From contig JAEUWY010000003.1 of the NCBI GenBank assembly GCA_022059125.1, positions 55,162-119,161 on the forward strand: a DNA stretch of 64,000 bases, written 5' to 3'. Position 1 is the first letter of the stretch, and each line of letters begins with the position of its first letter. A program made the translations under genes and the position numbers. Under the pieces are notes generated by a model. That model was not told the origin of the DNA. It made no database searches and saw only the letters and a program-made list of their open reading frames with translations. Source of the stretch: Corynespora cassiicola (Eukaryota > Ascomycota > Dothideomycetes > Pleosporales > Corynesporascaceae). Positions 4,870 through 44,018 of this stretch are shown here, one piece after another.

Positions 4870-5180
4870 GTACTATGAGACAGAAACGAACTGAAGATAT
4901 CTCAATTTGTGCGGTATCTTCCCCTATTAATAGTTCCGTTTAGGCTTCGGTATGAACGACATCAGTAATAAAGATCTCAATCATCACGCAGAATTGATGG
5001 CAATCAATAATTTTCTTACAGGGAAATCCATGCATATACAGTCAGACTGGTGTTGGAATGTGCTTGAGCCGGTCATGGATATCCAATCATCTGATGTCGA
5101 TAGCGAGCCATGATCTGTCATTTACAACACAGAGATTCATTGGCCCAGAAGATCCTGTTGCCTACATACCCCCTAATCCT
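4870..5180. other. Intergenic, no gene seen
   Basis: No coding signal was found. The only plus-strand open frame (5058-5282) overlaps the 3' end of the next gene and has no recognisable content. Confidence 0.4.
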
Positions 5181-5695
5181 TCATGCAGCCATGTCACTGC
5201 ATGTCCATGTCGCCGAGTCTTTACGCGCTTCATTCATCTGATTTCGGAACTCGCCTTCGTCAAGTGCATAAACTTCAGGTAAAATATTGTCCCACTTATC
5301 CGCAGGGTTCTGCTCCTGTTCCCTGTCATATCGGACAAGAACCTTCCCGCACCACCCTTGTGCCACATAGAGCCTAGAGTACCCCCATTCTTGAACATCA
5401 GCTTTCCCGGGCCATTCCGAAGCTTCTTGTATGCCGTAGAAGATGAGAAGGAAGCAAGCAGATCGTTTAGGCTGGCATTCTTCTCCATCTGAGTCTGTGG
5501 TATCCGAAGAGATGCTAAATACGGCATCCTTCTTTCGTGAGACAGCCTGCTCAGATGGCTCGCGGGTCTCGACAGTGAACTCCTTAGTACGTAATGGACT
5601 CAAAGCTAATTAGTATGGATTGAACACGTGGAAAAACGGTCTTACTTGAAGTTATTTTTGGCAGATTTCTGACAAACCAAGGGAGAAAATTCCAT
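5181..5695 (-). CDS. Orphan protein, two exons
   Basis: Exon 1 is 5695-5646 (MEFSPLVCQKSAKNNF). Exon 2 is 5598-5181. The 47-nt intron has a GTAAGA donor and a TACTAAT branch, and an acceptor at TTTGAG keeps the frame; an earlier TTAG acceptor would not. The product is 155 residues. An acidic/serine segment (SISSDTTDSDGEECQPKR) leads to a globular part with many aromatics (EWGYSRLYVAQGWCGKVLVR) and a helical, charged C-terminus. An alternative overlapping frame (5527-5234) is less protein-like. No family recognised. Confidence 0.5.
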
Positions 5696-27703: not shown

Positions 27704-27785
27704 ACGTGTTCCACCACCGAGCTGCGCACCCCACCGAGCTGCGCACTTTTGCCAAGACCACACCTCTTTCTACCTTTTATCGCAA
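27704..27785 (+). repeat. Left TIR of element 1
   Basis: 82 bp, identical to the reverse complement of 29466-29547. It contains two direct copies of CCACCGAGCTGCGCA. Confidence 0.95.
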
Positions 27786-27822
27786 CGTCTTAACAAGCTG
27801 GAGTAGTGTACAGTAGCTCCGA

Positions 27823-29466
27823 TCAATCTTTTATATCTGCTGTATCTTTGTTACATGTGCGCTTATTATGCCCTGCCTTGCCACATCTCTTGCAGCGTTG
27901 AGTACCTCCTCTACTAGCACCTGTTCGCGCCCTCTGCTCATGCTTCTCTACCTCAAGTTGAGCCTCAACGTCTCTCTGCGTAACTAATTCCTCTGCTTCT
28001 GCCTGCGATAGGGTCCCTCCTTTCTGAATACGCTTTTTCTTGCGCTTCCTACGTTCAGAAGCAGCCCTATTTGCCTGCTCTAGACTAGCTACTCGAGCCT
28101 CAAGTAGCGTGTGAGAATGAACCTTTATAGTTGACCCCTTCTTGACCTGTAGTACCATCTCCATAATAGAATCAGGTGATGAGCTTTTATGATCTCGTAT
28201 CCTTTTCAAGATCAACGTTGTCTGGGCCTCTATCTCCCAGGCATTGCTTGGTGTTTTAGGTTGCCAGGTAATAGGTTCCGGTAGGGGTGGTGTTGGCGTA
28301 CGAGGCCTCACTTCAAGCCTCGATAGCACGATCTCTGGGTTATATGGAACTAAGCCAGTTGCTCTGAAGCTAGACAGGACATTTTCCTTTGAAAATGTGC
28401 TCTCAAACACCTGTGTAAAGGCAGCTAGAAATGCTTTCTTATCAATGTGGTTGATATGGCTGTTTGCCAAGCCTCTGATTTCCTTCTTATATGCCTGCTT
28501 TAATGGCGCAAAGCAGCCCACATCAAGTGGCTGTAGGATATGAGATGTGTGCGGAGGCATACAAAGAGTGATAATCTTGTTCTCCTCACATAGATCCTGG
28601 AAGGCAAGCGACCTATGGCTCTCGTGGCCATCAACAATCAGTAGCCGGTAGCTACCCACTGTCCGGCCTTCTGTATGCTGAATAAAGTGCTGTAGCCAGG
28701 CAATACCAAGCTCATTTGTTGTCCAACCATTACTACTAACACCAATACGCCATTCCTGAGGGTTGTGGTACCATGCCTGGTCGTGATGCTTTGCTTTAAA
28801 GATGAAGAAAGGTGGGACTATCCAGCCCTTAGCGTTGATACTAGCAATCAACGTTGCCCACTCACGGTCGCCAGGCTGGATCCCTAGTGGTTTAAGACGC
28901 CTCTCAGATGCTGTTACCACCTTAACAGACCCTCCAACGCCCATCTGGAAGCCAGTTTCGTCAAAATTGTAGGTATCTTCGTCCAGTATGCCGTGCTTGG
29001 CTTTGACGTTGCGTATAAGGTCAAACCAAGGACTGATGATAGCTGGATCACTACACAGGACTCGTTGGTGATCACGCTGTCTTGTTATCTGAGCTTTAAT
29101 CTCGGGCTTCCGGCGAACGAGCCTACACGCCCAGTTTTCTCCAACCTGCCCACCACCACGCGCAGCTAGCAGTTGATTGGCCATTTCACGCACGTAGCTC
29201 AGCGTAGGGGCAAACCCTCGCGCGTCAAGCTTCCTTATGCATTGTACAACCGTTTCCTCTTCGTGCCTCTGGAGCCTTGATGAGTTGGCATAGGTATCGC
29301 GTCGTGAAGCTGTTCCAGCGCGTCGCGTGCGAAGAGTACTTTCAGAGACATTGTAGATGGCAGCAGCGCGCCGCTGGCTTATAGACGCGTCATGTTTTAT
29401 AGCCTGAACAGCAAGGATAATCCTATCTTCATAAGGGAGCGATTCGAGATCAGGTTGTTGAGACAT
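27823..29466 (-). CDS. DDE transposase, pogo/Fot1 type, with C-terminal zinc knuckle
   Basis: 547 residues from ATG 29466 (MSQQPDLESLPYEDR); a longer frame exists only with a non-ATG start. Order of domains: Psq-like helix-turn-helix (~15-55, ISQRRAAAIYNVSESTLRTR), a CENP-B-type HTH region, then the DDE_1 catalytic core. Visible acidic residues are in YNFDETGF, LLIVDGHESH and LQPLDVGCFAPLK. The C-terminal ~130 residues form a coiled/basic segment with a CCHC knuckle CKRCGKAGHNKRTC. All catalytic aspartates are present and the frame is unbroken. The product would bind the subterminal repeats and catalyse cut-and-paste into TA. The closest relative in the window is the transposase at 42245-43894. 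Confidence 0.92.
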   Translation of the reverse strand: MSQQPDLESLPYEDRIILAVQAIKHDASISQRRAAAIYNVSESTLRTRRAGTASRRDTYANSSRLQRHEEETVVQCIRKLDARGFAPTLSYVREMANQLLAARGGGQVGENWACRLVRRKPEIKAQITRQRDHQRVLCSDPAIISPWFDLIRNVKAKHGILDEDTYNFDETGFQMGVGGSVKVVTASERRLKPLGIQPGDREWATLIASINAKGWIVPPFFIFKAKHHDQAWYHNPQEWRIGVSSNGWTTNELGIAWLQHFIQHTEGRTVGSYRLLIVDGHESHRSLAFQDLCEENKIITLCMPPHTSHILQPLDVGCFAPLKQAYKKEIRGLANSHINHIDKKAFLAAFTQVFESTFSKENVLSSFRATGLVPYNPEIVLSRLEVRPRTPTPPLPEPITWQPKTPSNAWEIEAQTTLILKRIRDHKSSSPDSIMEMVLQVKKGSTIKVHSHTLLEARVASLEQANRAASERRKRKKKRIQKGGTLSQAEAEELVTQRDVEAQLEVEKHEQRARTGASRGGTQRCKRCGKAGHNKRTCNKDTADIKD

Positions 29467-29547
29467 TGCGATAAAAGGTAGAAAGAGGTGTGGTCTTGGC
29501 AAAAGTGCGCAGCTCGGTGGGGTGCGCAGCTCGGTGGTGGAACACGT
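29466..29547 (-). repeat. Right TIR of element 1
   Basis: 82 bp, perfect inverse of the left TIR. The transposase start codon (29466-29464) touches its inner edge. Confidence 0.95.
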
Positions 29548-29558
29548 TATGAAACTTA

Positions 29559-30131
29559 ACGTCTATCCCTCCGTTGCGCGACAGACCCCGTGCCGCGACA
29601 GCTTCGCACTCCGGACCCTCGGCGTCTCTCGTCTGAATGTCAATAAATCTTCAGCTTGTTTATTAACGTTCTACAACTGGTTTTCTCTCTATGCATCATC
29701 CTCCGGCGAAGACTATCGCCATGTTGGCGGTGCTGTTGACTGCTTCGTCGACGCCGCCAATCGACTCATCAGCAATACCCCCTTGTCCATTCGCGACCCT
29801 GAAAATCACTGAAAAGCTCGGAGGGCTAGAAATGAAGTAAAATCAAGGAAGACCGCCCCAGTCCTTTATAGATTGCTCCAAGCCAGAAAGGAGGCATTCC
29901 GAGAGTTTCTCCGGTCAAAAGAGAAGATGGAGAAAAGCGGCCCATGTGGCGACCCCGCTCTAGCGTGCCTTGATGTGCAGCAAGCTGCATTAGCGCGTGT
30001 GTAGTTTACTGTATTCTATTGCACAGCGGCCATCACCGGTACTCCCAAAATAGCTGTGGCGCAGGGCAGCGGGTCTCTCCAAGTGTCAACGATCACGTGG
30101 TGAGCTTCGCCGCTTCTCCCACCTGTCCTTT
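29559..30131 (+). repeat. Left long TIR of element 2
   Basis: About 572 bp, inverse of 37226-37797. Differences seen by eye are at the sixth base, at about 29680 (G/A) and at about 30080 (C/G). Identity fades after 30131. It is GC-richer than its surroundings. Confidence 0.93.
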
Positions 30132-30193
30132 CTTCTCCAGCGCTTGCCGATGCTGTCTATGATCGTTCGCAGCCCACCATTAACTTTGCCACG

Positions 30194-31939
30194 ATGGACA
30201 AAGCTAGTCAGGTATTGGCGCAAGGCCTTCCTGCTGGCATGCCTATGTCGTATCGTGCTCTAGCAGATTACAGCGATGTCCCTCACGCTACCCTTCATTA
30301 CCGAGCCCGTGGCCGCCGCTCGATAGAAGAGAAAGCCCGGAGCCAACAATACCTCACACCGTGGGAGGAGGAGGCTCTTGTTAAGTTTTTGCTACAGATG
30401 GCCGACCTCGGACGACCCACACGAATCAAGTTCATACCTTTCCTAGCCTTCTGCATCGCCCGCCAACGACCCGAGACAGACCGGCCACCCAAGCCCCCAG
30501 GTAAAAACTGGGCGAAGGCCTTTCAGAAACGCCACCCAGACGTGCAAGCGAGAAGAGTTAAGGCATTAGATTGGAATCGCCACGAGAAAAACACATATTG
30601 GAAGATGTCGCACTGGTTTGAAGTGATTGGGAGGATAGTACAGGACCCAACTATATTAGCGGAGAATATTTACAACATGGACGAGACTGGCGTCATGCTA
30701 TCGAGGCTAAGCTCTGTAAAAGTCCTTGTAGGTAAGGATGACATACGAGACTATAGGGGCGGGCGTGTGAAGCGCACCGTTGTAACAGCGGTTGAATGTA
30801 TCAGCGGCGATGGTAGGTATTTGAATCCGATGATCATCTGGCCGGCTGCCACCCACAGGAGTAACTGGACTACGTTTCACACTCCCGGATGGCAATATGC
30901 ATGTTCCGAATCGGGATATACCGACTCCTATATCAGTTTACAGTGGCTTAAGCGCATATTTGACCCCGAAACCAAGGAACGAGCTAACAACAAGCCCCGA
31001 GTCTTAATCTGCGACGGCCTTGGCACGCATGAAACGTTGGAAATTCTGGAGTTTTGCCTCGCAAATAACATTCTCCTGTGTCGCCTTCCATCTCATACAT
31101 CCCACAAGCTTCAGCCCTGCGATGTCGCTGTGTTTTCCCCACTGAAGGCAGCTTACCGTAGCCAGGTAGAGCGACTGGAGGGAGGAGGCGTCAATACGAT
31201 CGGCAAGGAGCATTTTACCTCGCTATACAAACCTGCAAGGGAAATAGCATTCACTAAAAGGAACATCGCAGCTGGGTGGGCTGCGACTGGCTTGTTTCCA
31301 TTCAACCCGGACAGAGTGCTCCGAGGTGTACCAAAGCCTACTGCTGAACTAACCATCACGACATCTCATGGAGTAGAAGGGGAAGTAGCTTCTTGTTCTC
31401 AAAGCGCAGCGCTGCAAACTCCGATCACTCCCGTGTCAATAGAGGGTCTCGTGTCTTTACAAAATCTCATAGTCAAACAGGATGCCTGTGCCCTTGACGA
31501 GACAAGTAAACACAGTCTACAGAGACACTTGGAAAAATTCACCAAAGCTGCGCAGTTGTCTATTGCCAAAGGTGCCCTTCAGCAGCAACAGATTCGATTC
31601 TTGATGACAATCAACAATGAAGCCAAAGCCAGACGGTCGACCAAATCGATAGTGCTCGGAACAGCAAAAGTCATGGGCTATGAGGAGCTCAAAGAAGCAA
31701 GAGAGAAGCGTGCCAAGAAAGAAGCCGCGAAAGAAGCAAAAGGCAAAGGGAAACGTGGCCGGAAGCGTAAGAGTTCTACGCTAGATACGGATGCAGCGGA
31801 GCCGAAGGTCAAGGCAGCGCGGGCGAGCAAAATGCCAGAACCAACTACATCCTCAATTACGCAGGTGATCGGAGTGCGATTAGAAGAGGGTGATACTACA
31901 AGAAAGCCATGGACAGCCCCAGTGGCGCAGATGTGGTAA
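30194..31939 (+). CDS. DDE transposase of element 2 (pogo/Fot1 type)
   Basis: 581 residues, intronless, ATG at 30194, about 60 bp inside the left TIR. An N-terminal HTH (SYRALADYSDVPHATLHYRA) is followed by a CENP-B-like HTH (KNWAKAFQKRHPDVQARRVK). DDE_1 catalytic motifs are IYNMDETGVM, VLICDGLGTHET and KLQPCDVAVFSPLK. The C-terminus is Lys/Arg-rich (KGKGKRGRKRKSS), a likely nuclear localisation signal, and lacks the CCHC knuckle of the other two transposases. The full-length frame and conserved acids suggest activity. It is clearly a different subfamily from those at 27823 and 42245. Confidence 0.92.
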   Translation: MDKASQVLAQGLPAGMPMSYRALADYSDVPHATLHYRARGRRSIEEKARSQQYLTPWEEEALVKFLLQMADLGRPTRIKFIPFLAFCIARQRPETDRPPKPPGKNWAKAFQKRHPDVQARRVKALDWNRHEKNTYWKMSHWFEVIGRIVQDPTILAENIYNMDETGVMLSRLSSVKVLVGKDDIRDYRGGRVKRTVVTAVECISGDGRYLNPMIIWPAATHRSNWTTFHTPGWQYACSESGYTDSYISLQWLKRIFDPETKERANNKPRVLICDGLGTHETLEILEFCLANNILLCRLPSHTSHKLQPCDVAVFSPLKAAYRSQVERLEGGGVNTIGKEHFTSLYKPAREIAFTKRNIAAGWAATGLFPFNPDRVLRGVPKPTAELTITTSHGVEGEVASCSQSAALQTPITPVSIEGLVSLQNLIVKQDACALDETSKHSLQRHLEKFTKAAQLSIAKGALQQQQIRFLMTINNEAKARRSTKSIVLGTAKVMGYEELKEAREKRAKKEAAKEAKGKGKRGRKRKSSTLDTDAAEPKVKAARASKMPEPTTSSITQVIGVRLEEGDTTRKPWTAPVAQMW

Positions 31940-32763
31940 TGGAGATTGTAGATGGTAGTGTTGTGTTGGCTTGAGGTTGTTTCGCATGAATCACAAACCG
32001 TAACCACACAATAACTTTCAAAAAAACATTTTAAGGTTGTATTTAGCTTAATGAAAGTTGATCTTTGGTTTCCCACTGTGCTGCTTGCTCATGATTAACA
32101 ACCGTATCTACCAAAAGGTCAGTTCTTGTGCTCGTCGCTCCGCTCTTACCATATACATTTTTTTGCTTCGCAGTAACCATTTCTTCGTAATTGTGGCTAC
32201 CTCTAGTTTATTCAAGCTTAGAGTGAGCCGTCTTGCTGGTATGGGGTGGCGAACTGGAAATAGTGAAAATCACTGCGAATATCTTTCTTTACACAGCAGA
32301 AATCCTACATTATTAAGTCATAGGCACTTCATTATTCCTTTAAGCCCCTATTTATATCTTTTCTAAGGATTCCATGTGTACAGTTTACAGTCCTCTCAGC
32401 TCTTTCTGATCTTGGCTTGACGTCACCCACATCTTATCTCGTGATTTACGCTCAAAATTAGGTATCAAAATCACGAAGACCTTTAGTATTGCCCTGCTGC
32501 CACCATTCGAAGTTTTTGTAGTACACTTGAAAATCAGTAGATTTACAACCGGATGTAAATGCACATTCACGGAACATATGGATGATGCTTAGAAGTCAGG
32601 TGATCCTGCTATATATAGCGAGAGCTGGGCGTACAGTGGCAGCCACGTGATGTCAGCTTGCCCAAGCTCAGCCACAATGTATCAGAAACCTCAGCTAGGC
32701 CAACGTTACCACTTCCAACCATTTGTGTAGTCAACGGCCGCTTGACCGTTGAGCTGCTTGGTC
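31940..32763. other. Spacer between transposase and NLR-like gene
   Basis: No open frame with support. It contains the presumed 3' end of the transposase transcript and the promoter of the NLR-like gene. AT-rich words (CTATATATAGCG near 32610) occur here. Confidence 0.5.
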
Positions 32764-32771
32764 TATATAAG
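32764..32771 (+). promoter_or_regulatory. TATA box candidate for the NLR-like gene
   Basis: TATATAAG lies 59 bp upstream of the chosen ATG at 32830. It argues that the in-frame extension upstream of 32830, which starts without an ATG in good context, is 5' leader and not protein. Confidence 0.45.
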
Positions 32772-32829
32772 CATCCTTACGTCTCCTCTTTCGCAGCCTT
32801 CAATCCAGCGGCTGGCTGGTTTCTTCTCC

Positions 32830-35800
32830 ATGCGTTTATTGCAGTTTGACGATAACGGCGAGTTCAGCCTTATTGAGCGGCTAGGCAATGACATCCCGCG
32901 CTACGCAATTCTATCGCACACATGGGGTCAAGATGAAGAGGAAGTCACTTTTCGAGGCCTCATGAACGACAGAGACAAAAGCAAAGCTGGTTACCAAAAA
33001 CTTCGCTTTTGTGGAGCGCAGGCTGCAAGGGACGGTCTCAAGTATTTCTGGGTAGACACCTGCTGCATCGACAAGTCAAGCAGTGCAGAGTTGTCTGAAG
33101 CGATTAACTCAATGTTCAGCTGGTACAAGAATGCGGATAGATGCTACGTGTATCTATCGGACGTTTCTCGTAGTTCATCCGATAGGAATGACGAAGCCAC
33201 ACAGAGATGGAAGCCAGGGTTTAGGAAAAGCAGATGGTTTACCCGAGGATGGACCCTTCAAGAGCTTATAGCGCCAGCATCGGTCGAGTTTTTTTCTAGA
33301 GAGGGAATATGCCTTGGCAGCAAGGACTCAATGGAGCAAACCATCCATGAGATCACAGGAATCGCCATCGATGCTCTTCGAGGAAGGCCATTGTCTCAGT
33401 TCAGTACAAACGAAAGACTGCTGTGGGCACAACATCGTATCACAAAACGAGAAGAAGATGCTGTATATTGTCAGCTGGGCTTGTTTGATGTCCAAATGCC
33501 ACTCTTGTACGGAGAAGGGCGAGGGAAAGCAGAAAAACGGCTTCATAGGGAGATCAAAGAAAGTTCAGGTACTATGCTTCTGAGTCAAGAGCAGAAACAG
33601 AAGCTATTGGACTCATTAAGGTTTGACCAGATCGACGCACGCCACACGACCATCAAGAACGCGCACGCTAGGACATGCAAGTGGTTGCTGCGCAAGTCTG
33701 AGTATATTGACTGGCTCGACAAGACTAAGCTGAGTAAGCATCACGGATTTTTATGGATTAAGGGCAAGCCAGGAACAGGAAAATCTACACTGATGAAGTT
33801 TGCTCTCGCCAGTGCCCGGAAGAGAATGAAAGACTGGGTCGTAGTCTCCTTCTTCTTCAACGCGCGAGGAGAGGATATCGAGAAATCTACAATGGGAACA
33901 TATCGGTCGTTGCTGCTGCAGCTTCTCGAACAGCTTCCCGCCCTCCAGAGCGTCTTCGAATCGGCTGGCTTTTCAACGCTAAGCGCTAGCACAGGACACA
34001 AATGGAGCATCGAATCACTCAAGACGCTTCTCGAACACGCCATACAAGGCTTAGGGAATTCTTCGGTGGTTTGCTTCATCGATGCTCTAGATGAGTGCGA
34101 AGAAGATCAGATACGCGATATGGTCTCGTTCTTCGAGCGGATTGGCGAGCTCGCTACATCATCTGGCATTCGGTTCCAAGTCTGCTTCTCCAGTAGGCAT
34201 TACCCCCACATCACCATCCGCAAAGGGATAGATCTGGTGCTGGAGGGTCAAGAAGGGCATACGCAAGACATCGTCAGCTACCTCGAGTCTGAGTTAAAGA
34301 TTGGAAAGACTAAAGTCGCACAGCAGGTCCGAGATGAAGTTCAAGAAAAAGCGGCAGGGGTCTTCATGTGGGTAGTGCTTGTCACAGACATCTTGAACAA
34401 AGAGCACGACCGCGGTCGGATGTTTGCACTTCGGCAAAGGCTGAAAGAAATCCCGAGAGATCTGCATGAGCTGTTTCGCGATATCTTAACACGTGATTCG
34501 GAACGTACGGACGAGCTTGTGCTCTGCATCCAATGGGTGCTTTTTGCCAAGCAGCCGCTAAGCCCCGAACAGTTGTACTTCGCCATTCTTTCCGGAATCC
34601 GACCAGATGAAATGTCAAAACACGACCCTGAAGAAAACACAAGCGAAGCAATCAAGAGGTTCATACTGGATTCATCGAAGGGGCTCGCCGAGACTACTAC
34701 GTCTAAGGCTCCGAAAGTCCAGTTCATTCACGAGTCGGTTCGGGACTTCCTTCTGAAAGAAGACGGTCTGAGCAGTATCTGGCCTGATCTCAGGAGCAAT
34801 TTTCTGGGCCAAAGCCACGAGCAGCTGAAGCAGTGTTGCCTGAACTACATGAGCATAGACATTTTCACTCTTCTAAAGGTCCCCGAGATTCTTTCGAAAG
34901 CTTCGTCGCCACAAGCTGCGGACTTACGCAAGTCAGCTGCCGATTCCTTTCCCTTCCTGGAGTATGCTACACATCATGTTTTGTACCATGCAAATGCGGC
35001 ACAAGGAACTGGCATTTCCCAGACACCATTCCTGGATAATTTCCAGCTGCCTCGCTGGGTTAAGCTTGACAACCTGCTTCAAAAGCATGAAATACGTAGG
35101 CATTCAGCCAGTGTAAGCCTTCTATATCTACTGGGAGAATACAATCTGGCAAACCTCATTGGAATCCACCAATCTATCGCATCCTGTGTTGAATCGGAAA
35201 ATGAGCGTTATGGATGCCCTCTGTTTTCAGCGATGGCGACTAACAGCAAAAACACTGTCAGGATTTTTATGAATCACATGGTGATAGATCATACTCCTGG
35301 AAAAAATGGGCTTAGACTGGACGCCGAGGACCATTACGAAGAATGTGACCAAACGAGTATTGGATTCAATTTCCAGTTTTCCAAAAGCAAGACTGTGTTT
35401 TCATATTCATTAGAATTTGGATATGAGAGAGTAGTTTCGTTTCTTATAGCAGCAGGCAAATTCGACGCCAACTCGAAGGACAACTACGCGCGGACGCCGC
35501 TTTCGTGGGCGGCACAGTACGGACACGAGGCGATAGTCAGGATGCTGCTCGACACAGGCAAAGTCGACGTCGACTCGAAAGACAGCTACGGGCAGACACC
35601 GCTTTCGCTGGCGGCACAGTACGAACACGAGGCGGTGGTCAAGATGCTGCTCGACACAAGCAAGGTCGACGTCGACTCGAAGGACAACAGCGGGCGGACG
35701 CCGCTTTCACTCGCGGCACAGAACGGAAGCGAGGCGATAGCCAAGCTGCTACTCGACACAGGCAAGGTCGACGTCGACTCGAAGGACAACAGCGGGCGGA

Positions 35801-37059
35801 CGCCGCTTTCACTCGCGGCACAGAACGGAAGCGAGGCGATAGCCAAGCTGCTACTCGACACAGGCAAGGTCGACGTCGACTCGAAGGACAACAGCGGGCG
35901 GACGCCGCTTTCACTCGCGGCACAGAACGGAAGCGAGGCGATAGTCAGGCTGCTACTTGACACGGGTAAGGTCGACGTCGACTCGAAGAGCATCTACGGG
36001 CAGAAGCTGCTTTCGTGGGCGGCACAGAACGGGAACGAGGCGATAGTCAGGATGCTACTCGACACAGGCAAAGTCGACATCGACTCGAAGGACGGCATCG
36101 GGCGGACGCCTCTTTCGCTGGCGGCACAGAACGGAAGCGAGGCGATAGTCAGGATGCTACTCGACACAGGCAAGGCCGACGTCGACTCGAAGGACAGCTA
36201 CGGGCAGACGCTGCTTTTACTGGCGGCACAGAACGGGAACAAGGCGATAGTCAGGATGCTACTCGACACAGGCAAAGTCGACGTCGACTCGAAGGACGGC
36301 ATCGGGCAGGCACCGCTTTCGCTGGCGGCACAAAACGGGAACAAGGCGATAGTCAGGCTACTACTCGAAACGGGTAAGGTCGACGTCGACTCGAAAGACA
36401 ACAGCGGGCGGACGCCGCTTTCACTCGCGGCACAGAACGGAAGCGAGGCGATAGTCAGGCTGCTACTTGACACAGGCAAAGTCGACGTCGACTCGAAGGA
36501 CAACTACTGGCGGACGCCACTTTCACTCGCGGCACAGAACGGAAGCGAGGCGATAGTCAGGCTGCTACTTGACACGGGTAAGGTCGACGTCGACTCGAAG
36601 AACATCTACGGGCAGAAGCTGCTTTCGTGGGCGGCACAGAACGGGAACAAGGCGATAGTCAGGCTACTACTCGAAACGGGCAAGGTCGACGTCGACTCGA
36701 AAGACAACAGCGGGCGGACGCCGCTTTCGCTGGCGGCACAGAACGGAAGCGAGGAGGTGGTCAAGATGCTGCTCGACATAGGCAAGGTCGAAGTCGACTC
36801 GAAGGATAGCTGCGGGCGAACGCCGCTTTGGTGGGCATTACTAAACAGACGTGAAGCGATAGTCAAGACGCTGCTTGACACAGGCAAGGTCGATGTCGAC
36901 TCGAAAGACAGCAGCGGACAAACGCCGCTTTCGTGGGCGGCATCGAACGGGGGCGAGGCGGTAATCAAGCTCCTCCGATCATACGTCAATCCTTCCCAGT
37001 GGCCAGGTCGTGTTCTTTCTATTTCGAATGATTCGCAGATGCAAACAACGTTGTTCTAG
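32830..37059 (+). CDS. HET-NACHT-ankyrin NLR-like protein
   Basis: 1409 residues, intronless. ATG chosen at 32830 (MRLLQFDDNGEFSLIERLG) because the HET-domain hallmark sequence follows at once and a TATA box lies 59 bp upstream. A HET domain covers ~1-190 (ILSHTWGQDEEEVTF, then FWVDTCCIDKSSSAELSEAI). The NACHT NTPase has Walker A GKPGTGKST (~312-320) and Walker B VVCFIDALDE (~412-421). A helical linker (~600-860) precedes about 15 ankyrin repeats of 34 residues (~870-1385). The repeats are nearly identical to each other (consensus core GRTPLSLAAQNGSEAIVRLL). Fungal proteins of this architecture act as intracellular recognition receptors in vegetative incompatibility, with the HET domain triggering cell death and repeats reading ligands. 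All key motifs are intact. It sits inside the TIRs of element 2, the oddest feature of the window. Confidence 0.95.
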   Translation: MRLLQFDDNGEFSLIERLGNDIPRYAILSHTWGQDEEEVTFRGLMNDRDKSKAGYQKLRFCGAQAARDGLKYFWVDTCCIDKSSSAELSEAINSMFSWYKNADRCYVYLSDVSRSSSDRNDEATQRWKPGFRKSRWFTRGWTLQELIAPASVEFFSREGICLGSKDSMEQTIHEITGIAIDALRGRPLSQFSTNERLLWAQHRITKREEDAVYCQLGLFDVQMPLLYGEGRGKAEKRLHREIKESSGTMLLSQEQKQKLLDSLRFDQIDARHTTIKNAHARTCKWLLRKSEYIDWLDKTKLSKHHGFLWIKGKPGTGKSTLMKFALASARKRMKDWVVVSFFFNARGEDIEKSTMGTYRSLLLQLLEQLPALQSVFESAGFSTLSASTGHKWSIESLKTLLEHAIQGLGNSSVVCFIDALDECEEDQIRDMVSFFERIGELATSSGIRFQVCFSSRHYPHITIRKGIDLVLEGQEGHTQDIVSYLESELKIGKTKVAQQVRDEVQEKAAGVFMWVVLVTDILNKEHDRGRMFALRQRLKEIPRDLHELFRDILTRDSERTDELVLCIQWVLFAKQPLSPEQLYFAILSGIRPDEMSKHDPEENTSEAIKRFILDSSKGLAETTTSKAPKVQFIHESVRDFLLKEDGLSSIWPDLRSNFLGQSHEQLKQCCLNYMSIDIFTLLKVPEILSKASSPQAADLRKSAADSFPFLEYATHHVLYHANAAQGTGISQTPFLDNFQLPRWVKLDNLLQKHEIRRHSASVSLLYLLGEYNLANLIGIHQSIASCVESENERYGCPLFSAMATNSKNTVRIFMNHMVIDHTPGKNGLRLDAEDHYEECDQTSIGFNFQFSKSKTVFSYSLEFGYERVVSFLIAAGKFDANSKDNYARTPLSWAAQYGHEAIVRMLLDTGKVDVDSKDSYGQTPLSLAAQYEHEAVVKMLLDTSKVDVDSKDNSGRTPLSLAAQNGSEAIAKLLLDTGKVDVDSKDNSGRTPLSLAAQNGSEAIAKLLLDTGKVDVDSKDNSGRTPLSLAAQNGSEAIVRLLLDTGKVDVDSKSIYGQKLLSWAAQNGNEAIVRMLLDTGKVDIDSKDGIGRTPLSLAAQNGSEAIVRMLLDTGKADVDSKDSYGQTLLLLAAQNGNKAIVRMLLDTGKVDVDSKDGIGQAPLSLAAQNGNKAIVRLLLETGKVDVDSKDNSGRTPLSLAAQNGSEAIVRLLLDTGKVDVDSKDNYWRTPLSLAAQNGSEAIVRLLLDTGKVDVDSKNIYGQKLLSWAAQNGNKAIVRLLLETGKVDVDSKDNSGRTPLSLAAQNGSEEVVKMLLDIGKVEVDSKDSCGRTPLWWALLNRREAIVKTLLDTGKVDVDSKDSSGQTPLSWAASNGGEAVIKLLRSYVNPSQWPGRVLSISNDSQMQTTLF
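35440..36990 (+). repeat. ~15 near-identical 102-bp ankyrin-coding repeats
   Basis: Tandem 102-bp units (34 codons), each starting near GGGCGGACGCCGCTTTC and ending near GTCGACGTCGACTCGAAG. Several neighbouring units are almost base-identical, for example the three beginning at about 35690, 35792 and 35894. Variation concentrates on a few codons (Asn/Tyr/Gly/Ser after SKD; NGSE/NGNK/NGNE; RLL/RML/KLL). The repeat DNA is also open in another plus frame and on the minus strand, producing shadow ORFs. Confidence 0.95.
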
Positions 37060-37225
37060 TCCATTAACCATATTGCGGGCCAATAGAAGAAAGGCATAGA
37101 ACTGATTACCATTAATAAAACACATGACAGTTTTACTATACATGAGAAGTGATAACAACGTAGGGGTGCACTTTGTACAGAAGGCCCCGTTCCAACATAA
37201 TAGTGGAGGCAGGCGCTGAAGAGTA

Positions 37226-37797
37226 AAGGACAGGTGGGAGAAGCGGCGAAGCTCACCACGTGATCGTTGACACTTCGAGAGACCCGCTGCCCTGCGCCAC
37301 AGCTATTTTGGGAGTACCGGTGATGGCCGCTGTGCAATAGAATACAGTAAACTACACACGCGCTAATGCAGCTTGCTGCACATCAAGGCACGCTAGAGCG
37401 GGGTCGCCACATGGGCCGCTTTTCTCCATCTTCTCTTTTGACCGGAGAAACTCTCGGAATGCCTCCTTTCTGGCTTGGAGCAATCTATAAAGGACTGGGG
37501 CGGTCTTCCTTGATTTTACTTCATTTCTAGCCCTCCGAGCTTTTCAGTGATTTTCAGGGTCGCGAATGGACAAGGGGGTATTGCTGATGAGTCGATTGGC
37601 GGCGTCGACGAAGCAGTCAACAGCACCGCCAACATGGCGATAGTCTTCGCCGGAGGATGATGCATAGAGAGAAAATCAGTTGTAGAACGTTAATAAACAA
37701 GCTGAAGATTTATTGACATTCAGACGAGAGACGCCGAGGGTCCGGAGTGCGAAGCTGTCGCGGCACGGGGTCTGTCGCGCAACGGAGGGATGGACGT
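37226..37797 (-). repeat. Right long TIR of element 2
   Basis: Inverse partner of 29559-30131. It starts 167 bp after the NLR-like stop codon. Several short open frames read across it but have mirror-image counterparts in the left copy and are not genes. Confidence 0.93.
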
Positions 37798-38019
37798 TAC
37801 CATCCCACGCACTTCAGACAGACCCTAGTCCATGGAGGATATAAGTATAGTGCGGTAGTTATCTATAACAATCAACTCAGTCTTCATTCTTCTTCCCCAC
37901 ATATACTCTAGATATAATTCTAAAGTTAAGAACAGATAAAATCGTCGCATATTAGATAAATAACTATACACTAGTGGAAAAAGAAGTTACAGTATCTTTT
38001 CTACAAAACTGTCCCATTA

Positions 38020-38578
38020 ACGTGCATCGCCCTTAAGCGAGAAACGCCCCTCAGCGAGATGAATCCAGCTTCAACCCAAACCAACCCTCACCACATTCGC
38101 TTATGGGCTTGCAGCATGTATGCTGATATTTCCCAAGTCTGTCTTTGTCACTCTGTATCCTGTGATAATTAAAATACGGTGTTTGTGGTCGAAACGACAG
38201 TCTTGTCGCACGCTGCGCAAGGAGCCACTTTACTCTCCACCCCTGCTCAGTCACCATTTGCCTCGTTCTTTGCAATCTGCAACTGCTATAGCGATAGATA
38301 CAACCGAATAGCACATTGTCCCTGGTTTTCAAGATGCTTGAGCCTGAAAAACATATACTCCGAGCTTATCTCCGTGTAAACTGGACTTCCGCTTGGCGTC
38401 ACAGCTCGACCACAACCATCATATTTTTCCTGCTTCAACATAGTATAAGAAGCAGAAGTGTCTGAAGCATGGATTTACTGCAATTAAGGACCTCTAGAAG
38501 TGTGTGGGGAAGTGTGAAGTGCCTGTCGAGTTGGCCCATCTCGCTGAGGGGCGTTTCTCGCTTACGGGCGATGCACGT
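38020..38578. mobile_element. 559-bp non-autonomous TIR element (MITE-like)
   Basis: A 42-bp TIR with a single mismatch runs 38020-38061 and 38537-38578, starts ACGTGCATCGCCC and is flanked by TA on both sides. The TIR holds repeated AGCGAGA-type words as in the other elements. The interior has no transposase. Short open frames (38120-38379 plus, 38332-38051 minus) have no family content. It could be mobilised by one of the neighbouring transposases; similarity of AAGCGAG words points to element 3. Confidence 0.88.
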
Positions 38579-38611
38579 TACACCATGCGTCTGACGACTC
38601 AGGGATAGACC

Positions 38612-41691: not shown

Positions 41692-42163
41692 CTCAGTCAG
41701 TTTTGCTTCCAAGAAATTCTATAATGGAGATTGCATGTGCGAAAGGACATCTCATAGTGATGTACTCATCTGAGTTGCCAGCTCTGTGTCACATGATATA
41801 TAAGTCGACATTTCAATTTCGAAGTTTTGATGCATCAATACCATTTTAATTGCATTCAAAAATTGGAAAACGAAATTTAGAATTTGAAAATTGGAAAACG
41901 GAGAGTCACATGGGATTTAATATCTATGTATCCATCTAGAAATATAAGATTCCCTTCCACCTAAACTGAATCAGACCCAACTCACGTATCAACTAAATGT
42001 TACAATTGACGTGCCTGTATCCGAATTGCTACTGTTTCCAAAACACCAACGTTTATACTGTATAAAACATGCGTTTTGCTCTTTTTGAAGGTCTATTTGC
42101 CCTTACTGTGTTGTCTTCCTCACTTTCTAAAGCTAAAGTACGTTTGCATGAATATTCATGGTA

Positions 42164-42214
42164 ACGTAGTTTATAAGTGAGCGGCGCATATAAGCGAGCG
42201 GCGCACCCCACCAA
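42164..42214 (+). repeat. Left TIR of element 3
   Basis: 51 bp, identical to the reverse complement of 43966-44016, with internal 17-bp direct repeats. Confidence 0.95.
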
Positions 42215-42244
42215 CTTTTCGCGACGCGTTACCTATCAACTACA

Positions 42245-43894
42245 ATGGCTCAACCCACGCATATTGAATTACCCTATAACGAGGCCAATGTCTTCCTAGC
42301 TATCTCAGCTATCAATAAGAATCAAATTCAGAGTGGACGACGCGCTGCTACTACGTACAGCGTCCCTGAAACCACGCTCCGGCGCCGACGCGCAGGAATC
42401 GCTGCGCGACGCGACTGTGAGCCCAAATCAAAGAAGCTTACCAAGTTAGAAGAGGAGGTGATTGTCAAACACATACTTGATCTAGATTCGCGAGGCTTTG
42501 CCCCCACTCTAGGTGCCGTACGAGATATGGCGAATAAACTGCTCACTGAGCGCGGCGCAGGCCACGTTGGCCAGCTATGGCCTAGGAACTTTGTCAAACG
42601 AACAGAAAGCCTCGTAACGCGATTCAATCGACCCTACGATCGGCAGCGGGCTCTCTGTGAGGACCCAACGGCCATACAGGCCTGGTTTGAGCTGGTAGCA
42701 CGTACAAAGGCCACCTATGGCATCTGCGACGAGGATACCTTCAACTTTGACGAGACTGGCTTTCTAATGGGTAAAATATCCTCTCGGCTAGTTGTCACGG
42801 GCTCAGAGAGACGTGGCCGGCCAAAGGCGATCCAGCCAGGCAATCGCGAGTGGGTTACGATAATCCAGGGAATCAACGCTGTTGGGTGGGCTATCCCGCC
42901 CTTTATCATCTTCGCTGGCCAGTACCACCTCTCTGCCTGGTATGAGGGCGATGATATACCAGGTGACTGGGCCATTGGTCTCAGTGACAATGGCTGGACC
43001 ACGAACGAGCTTGGTGTTGCCTGGCTATGGCACTTTATTAAGCATACAGCAGAGCGTAGAGTGGGCGCGCGCCAATTACTAATACTCGATGGCCATGAGA
43101 GCCATAACTCGCTTGAATTCCAGGAGATCTGTAAGGAGAACAAGATCTATACTCTCTGTATGCCACCACATTCGTCGCACCTGTTGCAGCCACTTGACGT
43201 GGGCTGTTTCTCACCGTTGAAGCGGGCGTACGGGCGCCAGGTCGAGGGCCTAATACGCGACCATGTTAACCATATCACCAAGCTTGAGTTCTTACCAGCC
43301 TTCCGCGCCGCTTACAACCAGTCCATCACAAAGGGAAATATCTGCGCAAGCTTTCGGGGCGCTGGACTAGTCCCACATAATCCAGAGGTAGTGCTTCTAA
43401 AGCTTAATATCAAGCTTCGGACGCCATCACCACTAGCCCTACCAGAGGCTGTGTGGGAAGCTAAAACACCAAGCAACCAGCGCGAGATAGAGGCTCAATC
43501 AAGATTAATTCGCGATCGGATCCGCGCACATAAGAGTTCGTCGCCTGCTTCTATTATTGAGAGGCTTAACCAGCTAGAGAGGGGCTCCTCTAAGGCAATG
43601 CATCAGATAGCGCTTATGCGCGAGCGAGTCTTGAGCCTTGAAAGAGCAAATGAGGCCGCCACAACGCGCAAGCAGCGTAGAAAGAAGCGGATTCAGAAGC
43701 AAGGCACCTTATCGAAGGCAGAAGGAGAGGACATGATTGCTCAAAAGGCTGTTGAGCAGCAGATAGAGGGAGAAACGCGGCAAGGTAAGGCGCGATCGGG
43801 TGCGAGCCGGCAGGCTCTAGCGCGCTGCACGCGCTGCAGGGAGCCTGGACACAATTCGCGTACGTGTAAGAAGGCTTCTCTAGATATTATATAA
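42245..43894 (+). CDS. DDE transposase of element 3, with C-terminal zinc knuckle
   Basis: 549 residues, ATG at 42245 (MAQPTHIELPYNEANVFLAI), no intron. Psq-type HTH (RRAATTYSVPETTLRRRRAG), CENP-B-type HTH region, and DDE_1 core with FNFDETGFLMG, LLILDGHESH and LLQPLDVGCFSPLK. The C-terminal coiled/basic region (RKQRRKKRIQKQGTLSKAEG) leads to a CCHC knuckle CTRCREPGHNSRTC. Domain order and many blocks match the transposase at 27823-29466, so these are diverged members of one family. The catalytic acids are intact. Confidence 0.93.
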   Translation: MAQPTHIELPYNEANVFLAISAINKNQIQSGRRAATTYSVPETTLRRRRAGIAARRDCEPKSKKLTKLEEEVIVKHILDLDSRGFAPTLGAVRDMANKLLTERGAGHVGQLWPRNFVKRTESLVTRFNRPYDRQRALCEDPTAIQAWFELVARTKATYGICDEDTFNFDETGFLMGKISSRLVVTGSERRGRPKAIQPGNREWVTIIQGINAVGWAIPPFIIFAGQYHLSAWYEGDDIPGDWAIGLSDNGWTTNELGVAWLWHFIKHTAERRVGARQLLILDGHESHNSLEFQEICKENKIYTLCMPPHSSHLLQPLDVGCFSPLKRAYGRQVEGLIRDHVNHITKLEFLPAFRAAYNQSITKGNICASFRGAGLVPHNPEVVLLKLNIKLRTPSPLALPEAVWEAKTPSNQREIEAQSRLIRDRIRAHKSSSPASIIERLNQLERGSSKAMHQIALMRERVLSLERANEAATTRKQRRKKRIQKQGTLSKAEGEDMIAQKAVEQQIEGETRQGKARSGASRQALARCTRCREPGHNSRTCKKASLDII

Positions 43895-43965
43895 TTTAGG
43901 ATAGCTATCATGTTAATAAAATAGTGATGCGTTGTGAATTTATATGCTTTAAAAGGCTTAGAGAC

Positions 43966-44016
43966 TTGGTGGGGTGCGCCGCTCGCTTATATGCGCCGCT
44001 CACTTATAAACTACGT
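43966..44016 (-). repeat. Right TIR of element 3
   Basis: 51 bp, perfect inverse of 42164-42214. TA follows immediately. Confidence 0.95.
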
Positions 44017-44018
44017 TA

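Follow-up and report, generated by a model that had tools for sequence, protein, structure and literature searches.

The NLR genes of fungi differ strongly from one strain to another, and, giant Starship elements aside, few routes are known by which whole receptor genes may come and go. The window analysed here, a stretch of 64,000 nucleotides of Corynespora cassiicola DNA (C3:55162-119161, C3 being a contig of 119,161 bases in a genome of 44.35 Mb and 23 contigs), raises the question of whether such a gene may also travel inside a small transposon that encodes its own transposase. Over a stretch of 922 aa the RPB2 encoded by this genome agrees fully (100%) with that of C. cassiicola Philippines, which indicates this species or a very near one as the host. 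The end of the window consists of TTAGGG repeats, which places the locus in question about 26 kb from a telomere. The interpretation that we favour, with a probability of roughly 0.85, is that positions 29559-37797 represent a pogo-type transposon bounded by terminal inverted repeats (TIRs) and containing both a DD35D transposase and a complete HET-NACHT-ankyrin gene, and that all 8.24 kb of this transposon likely entered together, the target being a TA within a subtelomeric repeat.

Boundaries of the element (29559..37797, + strand, 8,239 bp) are defined by its TIRs, by flanking TA dinucleotides and by an empty paralogous site elsewhere in the genome. The left TIR (29559..30131, + strand) and its right counterpart (37225..37797, - strand) are each 573 bp long and differ by three mismatches, at TIR positions 6, 122 and 522 (99.5% identity), with abrupt divergence of the two sequences from position 574 onward; taken as a BLAST alignment, the pair reaches 98.8% over 592 bp, TA included. 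The termini read ACGTCTATCC and ACGTCCATCC, the outermost bases being ACGT at both ends, and the left and right copies of the duplicated TA target occupy 29557..29558 and 37798..37799. An inverted repeat of 573 bp with 99.5% identity is far beyond chance. The sequence-only reading from which this analysis started had described repeats of about 572 bp with some three mismatches, ACGT termini and TA on the outer sides, and this description now stands with exact values. Against the attribution of the whole unit to the pogo type counts the length of the repeats, which far exceeds the Tc1/mariner norm, 20-30 bp being given as typical and 169 bp as the maximum mentioned in one account (PMC12506042). 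Between the TIRs lie two genes, both on the + strand: the transposase, whose ORF starts 63 bp inward of the left TIR, is followed by the NLR gene, whose stop codon is positioned 166 bp ahead of the right TIR, and the 890-bp spacer between them (31940..32829, + strand) would, judged from its position, house the NLR promoter. The same reading had also claimed that a full-length pogo-type transposase and a 1409-codon HET-NACHT-ANK gene are enclosed, and named internal TIRs separating the two genes as what would speak against a single unit. Both ORFs proved to be uninterrupted, Pfam-supported and located between the TIRs, and the search for a TIR copy in the interior of the element returned none, the best match there having E 0.62 as compared to 0.23 in one shuffled interior.

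The transposase (30194..31939, + strand) is an uninterrupted ORF of 581 aa with a DDE_1 Pfam match (E 1.2e-30). In an alignment of 14 sequences, comprising the window transposase and 13 homologues chosen from 120 listed, residues D163, D274 and D310 are invariant, and 35 residues between the last two give the DD35D pattern, while a Tc5-type helix-turn-helix (HTH_Tnp_Tc5) scores 20.3 bits, under the Pfam cut-off of 22.2 bits, so that the N-terminal HTH or CENP-B-type DNA-binding domain of pogo transposases is at most weakly indicated, a point that counts against the favoured reading. Protein-database searches were performed with the transposase and with the NLR, about 8,000 candidates being scored per search. 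For the transposase, the top-scoring match is 73% identical over the full length, and partial or shorter ones among the 120 listed reach 77%, one of them over 75% of the query. No relatives of this protein were found in viral contigs, and comparison with solved structures gave weak, meaningless matches alone (best E 0.14). Taken together with the TIRs, the intact frame suggests an apparently autonomous pogo-like transposon with its own transposase.

The NLR gene (32830..37059, + strand) extends over 1,409 uninterrupted codons, no intron being needed to keep the frame. Its product contains a HET domain match at aa 25-125 (32902..33204, + strand; PF06985, E 4e-13), an NPHP3_N or NACHT-like P-loop match at aa 282-456 (33673..34197, + strand; PF24883, E 1.8e-31) and an ankyrin array of 15 units of 34 aa, or 102 bp, the last one degenerate (35470..36999, + strand; repeat analysis and Pfam ankyrin families). 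Two motifs of the NACHT region, GKPGTGKST at aa 312 and CFIDALDEC at aa 415, are taken by us to be Walker A and Walker B, respectively; the NACHT family itself (PF05729) is absent among the 12 Pfam families listed, and the NACHT-type assignment rests on PF24883 NPHP3_N. Solved-structure matches to the first 907 aa, all 60 of the 60 shown, start beyond aa 810, that is, in the ankyrin region. Two neighbouring ankyrin units out of 15 are identical over 102 bp, and six are 87-100% mutually identical, resembling the highly conserved repeats described in fungal NLRs, where such repeats are reported to be enriched, preferentially together with HET domains, and their reshuffling would alter the binding surface (PMC4986451).

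Among database proteins, the best match to residues 1-850 of the NLR belongs to Lasiodiplodia theobromae and is 73% identical, being aligned over all of these residues. Within the genome, the closest full-length match (C1:375540-378272) has 62% identity to the 907-aa query, while matches to parts of it go up to 63-64% and, in a single case of about 120 residues, to 70%; no other full-length NLR above 62% was found, so that a recent donor within the genome is not evident. For the 62% paralogue, dN amounts to 0.28 (NG86), dS being not computable. Third-position GC is 0.52 and 0.53 in the two genes of the element versus 0.66 in RPB2, a likeness of the transposase and the NLR with which a common foreign origin would be compatible. 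No Corynespora name appears among the 120 database matches listed per gene, in a set where many matches are nameless, names are shortened and annotation may mask the element, which makes this absence a weak hint about other strains, even though the database does contain RPB2 of the Philippines strain; NCBI had 41 C. cassiicola assemblies in 2020 (PMC8235470). RIP indices, TpA/ApT and (CpA+TpG)/(ApC+GpT), were judged by the usual thresholds. The pair is not RIP-like for the TIR (0.69 and 1.22), the transposase (0.86 and 1.24) and the N-terminal part of the NLR (0.61 and 1.41). The spacer is on the RIP side by the first index alone (0.97), and the ankyrin array is on the RIP side by both (1.19 and 0.80), this array being compositionally biased with 59% GC.

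How this pair of genes came to its present position can be approached from a segmental duplicate on contig C6, where both flanks are collinear with those of the window and the element together with its NLR is absent. The right flank matches C6:2640122-2643644 with 98% identity over 3,523 bp, shorter pieces continuing to C6:2644015, and the left flank matches C6:2644036-2649704 with 95% identity over the whole 5,691-bp query. The C6 junction corresponds to the window flanks minus the element and minus a neighbouring 1.84-kb pogo element, with one TA left at each; compared with flanks joined in this way, it shows three mismatches in 165 aligned positions and no gap, the alignment stopping at an extra piece present on C6. 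A C6 piece of about 147 bp (C6:2643809-2643955), starting TAACGTCTATCTGTTG, is missing from the window near 37853-37858, indicating that insertions set the duplicates apart on both sides. The insertion point falls inside a dispersed repeat some 120 bp long. The 40 places listed for the junction query comprise 38 further copies of the repeat, each aligned without a break across the point, together with the C6 site itself and the left half of the occupied site; the copy number is a lower bound given that 40 of 66 candidates were scored. The sequence-only reading had asked for a look at empty TA sites in other strains; what was found is their equivalent at a paralogous locus of the same genome. 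No TIR-less copy of the NLR gene at a syntenic site, which would have spoken for an independent history of the gene, was encountered: the gene is missing from the C6 duplicate, and its best full-length relative elsewhere is the 62% paralogue. Since both genes lie between mirror-image TIRs and the duplicate site is devoid of the 8.2-kb unit, it is likely that the transposon brought the receptor gene along when it jumped in. The C6 site agrees with insertion of the complete unit in one event and is compatible with either order of events for the NLR. Because the TIRs differ from each other less (0.5%) than the duplicated flanks do (about 2-5%), the insertion probably postdates the segmental duplication. 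Near-identity of the TIRs had been proposed to imply recent movement or homogenisation, and both terms of this proposal persist, as a young insertion is supported by the flanks and homogenisation of the TIRs would mimic the same pattern.

Ten TIR matches occur in the genome, two of them being the element's own. One of the others is a TIR-only miniature (C1:443283-444193), terminated by ACGT and flanked by TA at either end, which splits another transposase gene into halves (C1:442505-443281 and C1:444204-444905); its position inside a gene implies that such ends work or worked as transposon ends. A truncated copy combining the TIR with the transposase start (C1:257977-258998, 93.6% over 1,022 bp) has a different outer end, extending about 170 bp to another TA-ACGT start, and miniatures on C13 and C6 have their outer ends about 140 bp further out. 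Limits of the family therefore vary, which was counted against the favoured reading. Different outermost ends (ACGTCTRTCTGTTG...) accompany the same inner TIR in L050:2523-2700 and in L005:884-1027 and 1912-2055, one of which shares the transposase start; this diversity suggests that transposon ends are exchanged or turned over among family members. Relatives of the transposase with 66-70% identity were seen at C6:2676846-2678675 and at C2:4795190-4797019, the latter accompanied by a match of equal score on C22. The first of them is part of an NLR-free unit, roughly 3.27 kb long, whose inverted ends measure 42 bp; it has a TGA within the transposase match and is flanked by TA on one side only, the latter being a point against the favoured reading of the window element. 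Further copies in the parent genome, the search for which had been suggested by the sequence-only reading, thus exist in the form of transposase relatives without an NLR, and no second NLR-bearing full copy was found there, which also counts against a mobile receptor-bearing unit. With relatives having the transposase alone, it is the receptor gene that marks the copy in the window.

The neighbourhood of the element is populated by other mobile sequences. A second pogo-type element (27704-29547), with a 547-aa transposase ORF on the - strand, TIRs of about 100 bp at 97% identity, ACGT ends and TA on both sides, is situated nine bases to the left of the NLR-bearing one, is missing from the C6 duplicate and recurs with 100% identity at C1:897628-899473. 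A third pogo-like element (42162-44018), bounded by perfect inverted repeats of 53 bp and flanked by TA, is represented by two more 100% identical copies, C3:46600-48456 and C1:3031848-3033704. Full-length identical copies of these two nearby elements point to recent pogo movement in this region. A miniature at 38018-38580 is delimited by inverted repeats of 44 bp that terminate in ACGT and are flanked by TA, and it is likewise missing from the C6 duplicate.

Several observations concern NLR genes outside the element. A motif of some 47 bp, rich in GC and in part palindromic, lies about 350-550 bp upstream of NLR genes (L030:957-1003 and 5178-5224; L036:1111-1155); among the matches listed, it is strong in L030, L036 and L037, shorter and weaker near several other NLRs, and it was not found in the window. 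This motif may perhaps be a shared regulatory element of NLR genes. The inverted repeat around the paralogue C1:375540 (77 bp, 85.7%) was considered as the signature of a second NLR transposon and rejected, since it is a motif recurring near several NLR genes and its downstream copy runs into a segment found reversed upstream of other NLRs among the matches listed. Equal-scoring NLR matches at C6:2775258-2777228 (-) and C6:2782478-2784448 (+), inverted and about 5 kb apart, form a possible palindromic NLR duplication. Two pairs of blocks, C3:9447-18111 with C2:4764638-4773302 and C22:3757-28067 with C2:4795190-4819398, contain NLR and transposase matches, the equal scores and spacing of which indicate that blocks rich in NLR genes and transposons have undergone large segmental duplications.

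This genomic context gives some room for a different history, in which the element arrived with its transposase alone and only afterwards acquired the NLR in its interior through ectopic recombination or gap repair, the cargo then never having travelled with it. The existence of NLR-free transposase relatives, the lack of a second TIR-bound NLR copy and the richness of the region in NLR genes and segmental duplications are all in line with such a scenario, which we nevertheless hold to be improbable: no donor is seen, as the best other full-length NLR stands at 62%, partial matches at 63-64% and one of about 120 residues at 70%, and the empty site, although neutral in itself to the order of events, fits a single insertion of the whole unit.

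A coincidental framing of a resident NLR gene by two separate transposon ends might be imagined in a place so dense in transposons, with another pogo element only a few bases off. That the inverted repeats arose by chance or as a composite was rejected on account of the C6 empty site and the absence of internal TIRs; the C6 duplicate has no NLR and its flanks meet at one TA, inner TIRs do not exist and the outer ones are 99.5% identical. The empty site by itself disposes of most of the case for a composite origin, which we regard as highly improbable. Scarcely credible, finally, is an assembly artefact through misjoining or collapse at a chromosome end full of repeats, for which one could adduce the contig size (119 kb, with a telomere at one end), the near-identical TIRs and the ankyrin units; TA and ACGT are present at both ends, the flanks are collinear with C6 on both sides, and there is no other copy of the NLR to serve as a source of a misjoin.

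If the element was indeed inserted as one unit, then, by analogy with the pogo family, its transposase would bind the long TIRs and cut and paste everything between them at a TA, and the receptor gene would ride along as cargo. The encoded protein, as may be supposed from fungal NLRs and from the NLR family in general, would sense a ligand by its ankyrin array, oligomerise through the NACHT region and trigger cell death via the HET domain upon non-self recognition. A further step, and an unlikely one, would be to consider the receptor not as passive cargo but as a component kept in the element by selection: pogo transposons with a receptor would then form a lineage that spreads a ready-made allorecognition or defence gene through a population, strains with and without it becoming incompatible, and that gains by killing mixed cells or rival elements. 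Irrespective of this, a compact element having both its own transposase and a complete receptor means that a recognition gene could be gained, relocated or lost in a single round of cut-and-paste; insertion or loss would create presence/absence polymorphism, and a receptor gene could in principle be spread or lost by a transposon.

Comparison with known systems defines the place of this element. It is similar to fungal pogo/Fot1-type transposons in having a DDE_1 transposase with DD35D, a pattern reported for pogo groups 33-40, a TA target and TIRs, and unlike their usual layout, described as a transposase between TIRs with extra ORFs possible, it possesses very long TIRs and a host-type gene (PMC7325037). 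Podospora het-d, het-e and het-r share the order of N-terminal HET, central NACHT and C-terminal repeats of high identity; they have WD40 repeats, and the accessible parts of these works describe no enclosure in a TIR transposon, whereas the window NLR is ankyrin-based and TIR-enclosed (PMC1805685, PMC12222747, PMC4986451). Starships also are mobile elements of Pezizomycotina carrying NLR, HET or NACHT genes, being giant and led by a DUF3435 tyrosine recombinase, unlike the 8.2-kb element with its DDE transposase (PMC9594970, PMC12134995). No such captain appeared in the Pfam results for the two genes of the element. Carriage of an NLR by a small Tc1/mariner or pogo element had been called unusual; no such case was found in open-licence literature among the matches listed, as covered by titles and beginnings of abstracts, but for host-relevant cargo as such a precedent exists in ToxTA, formerly ToxhAT (PMC12506042). 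That account depicts a TA-duplicating element of 14 kb in wheat-infecting Pleosporales, with 74-bp TIRs and the gene ToxA, judged to be a non-autonomous representative of the Tc1/mariner type (PMC12506042). Common to both are Class II affiliation, the order of size, TIRs, TA duplication, an empty site with one TA, host-relevant cargo and the same taxonomic order of hosts, while in place of the effector ToxA, the 74-bp TIRs and the non-autonomous state the window element has an NLR, 573-bp TIRs and an intact transposase frame of its own (PMC12506042). It would thus extend small cargo transposons of the ToxTA type in Pleosporales from effector to receptor and unite transposase and cargo in one unit.
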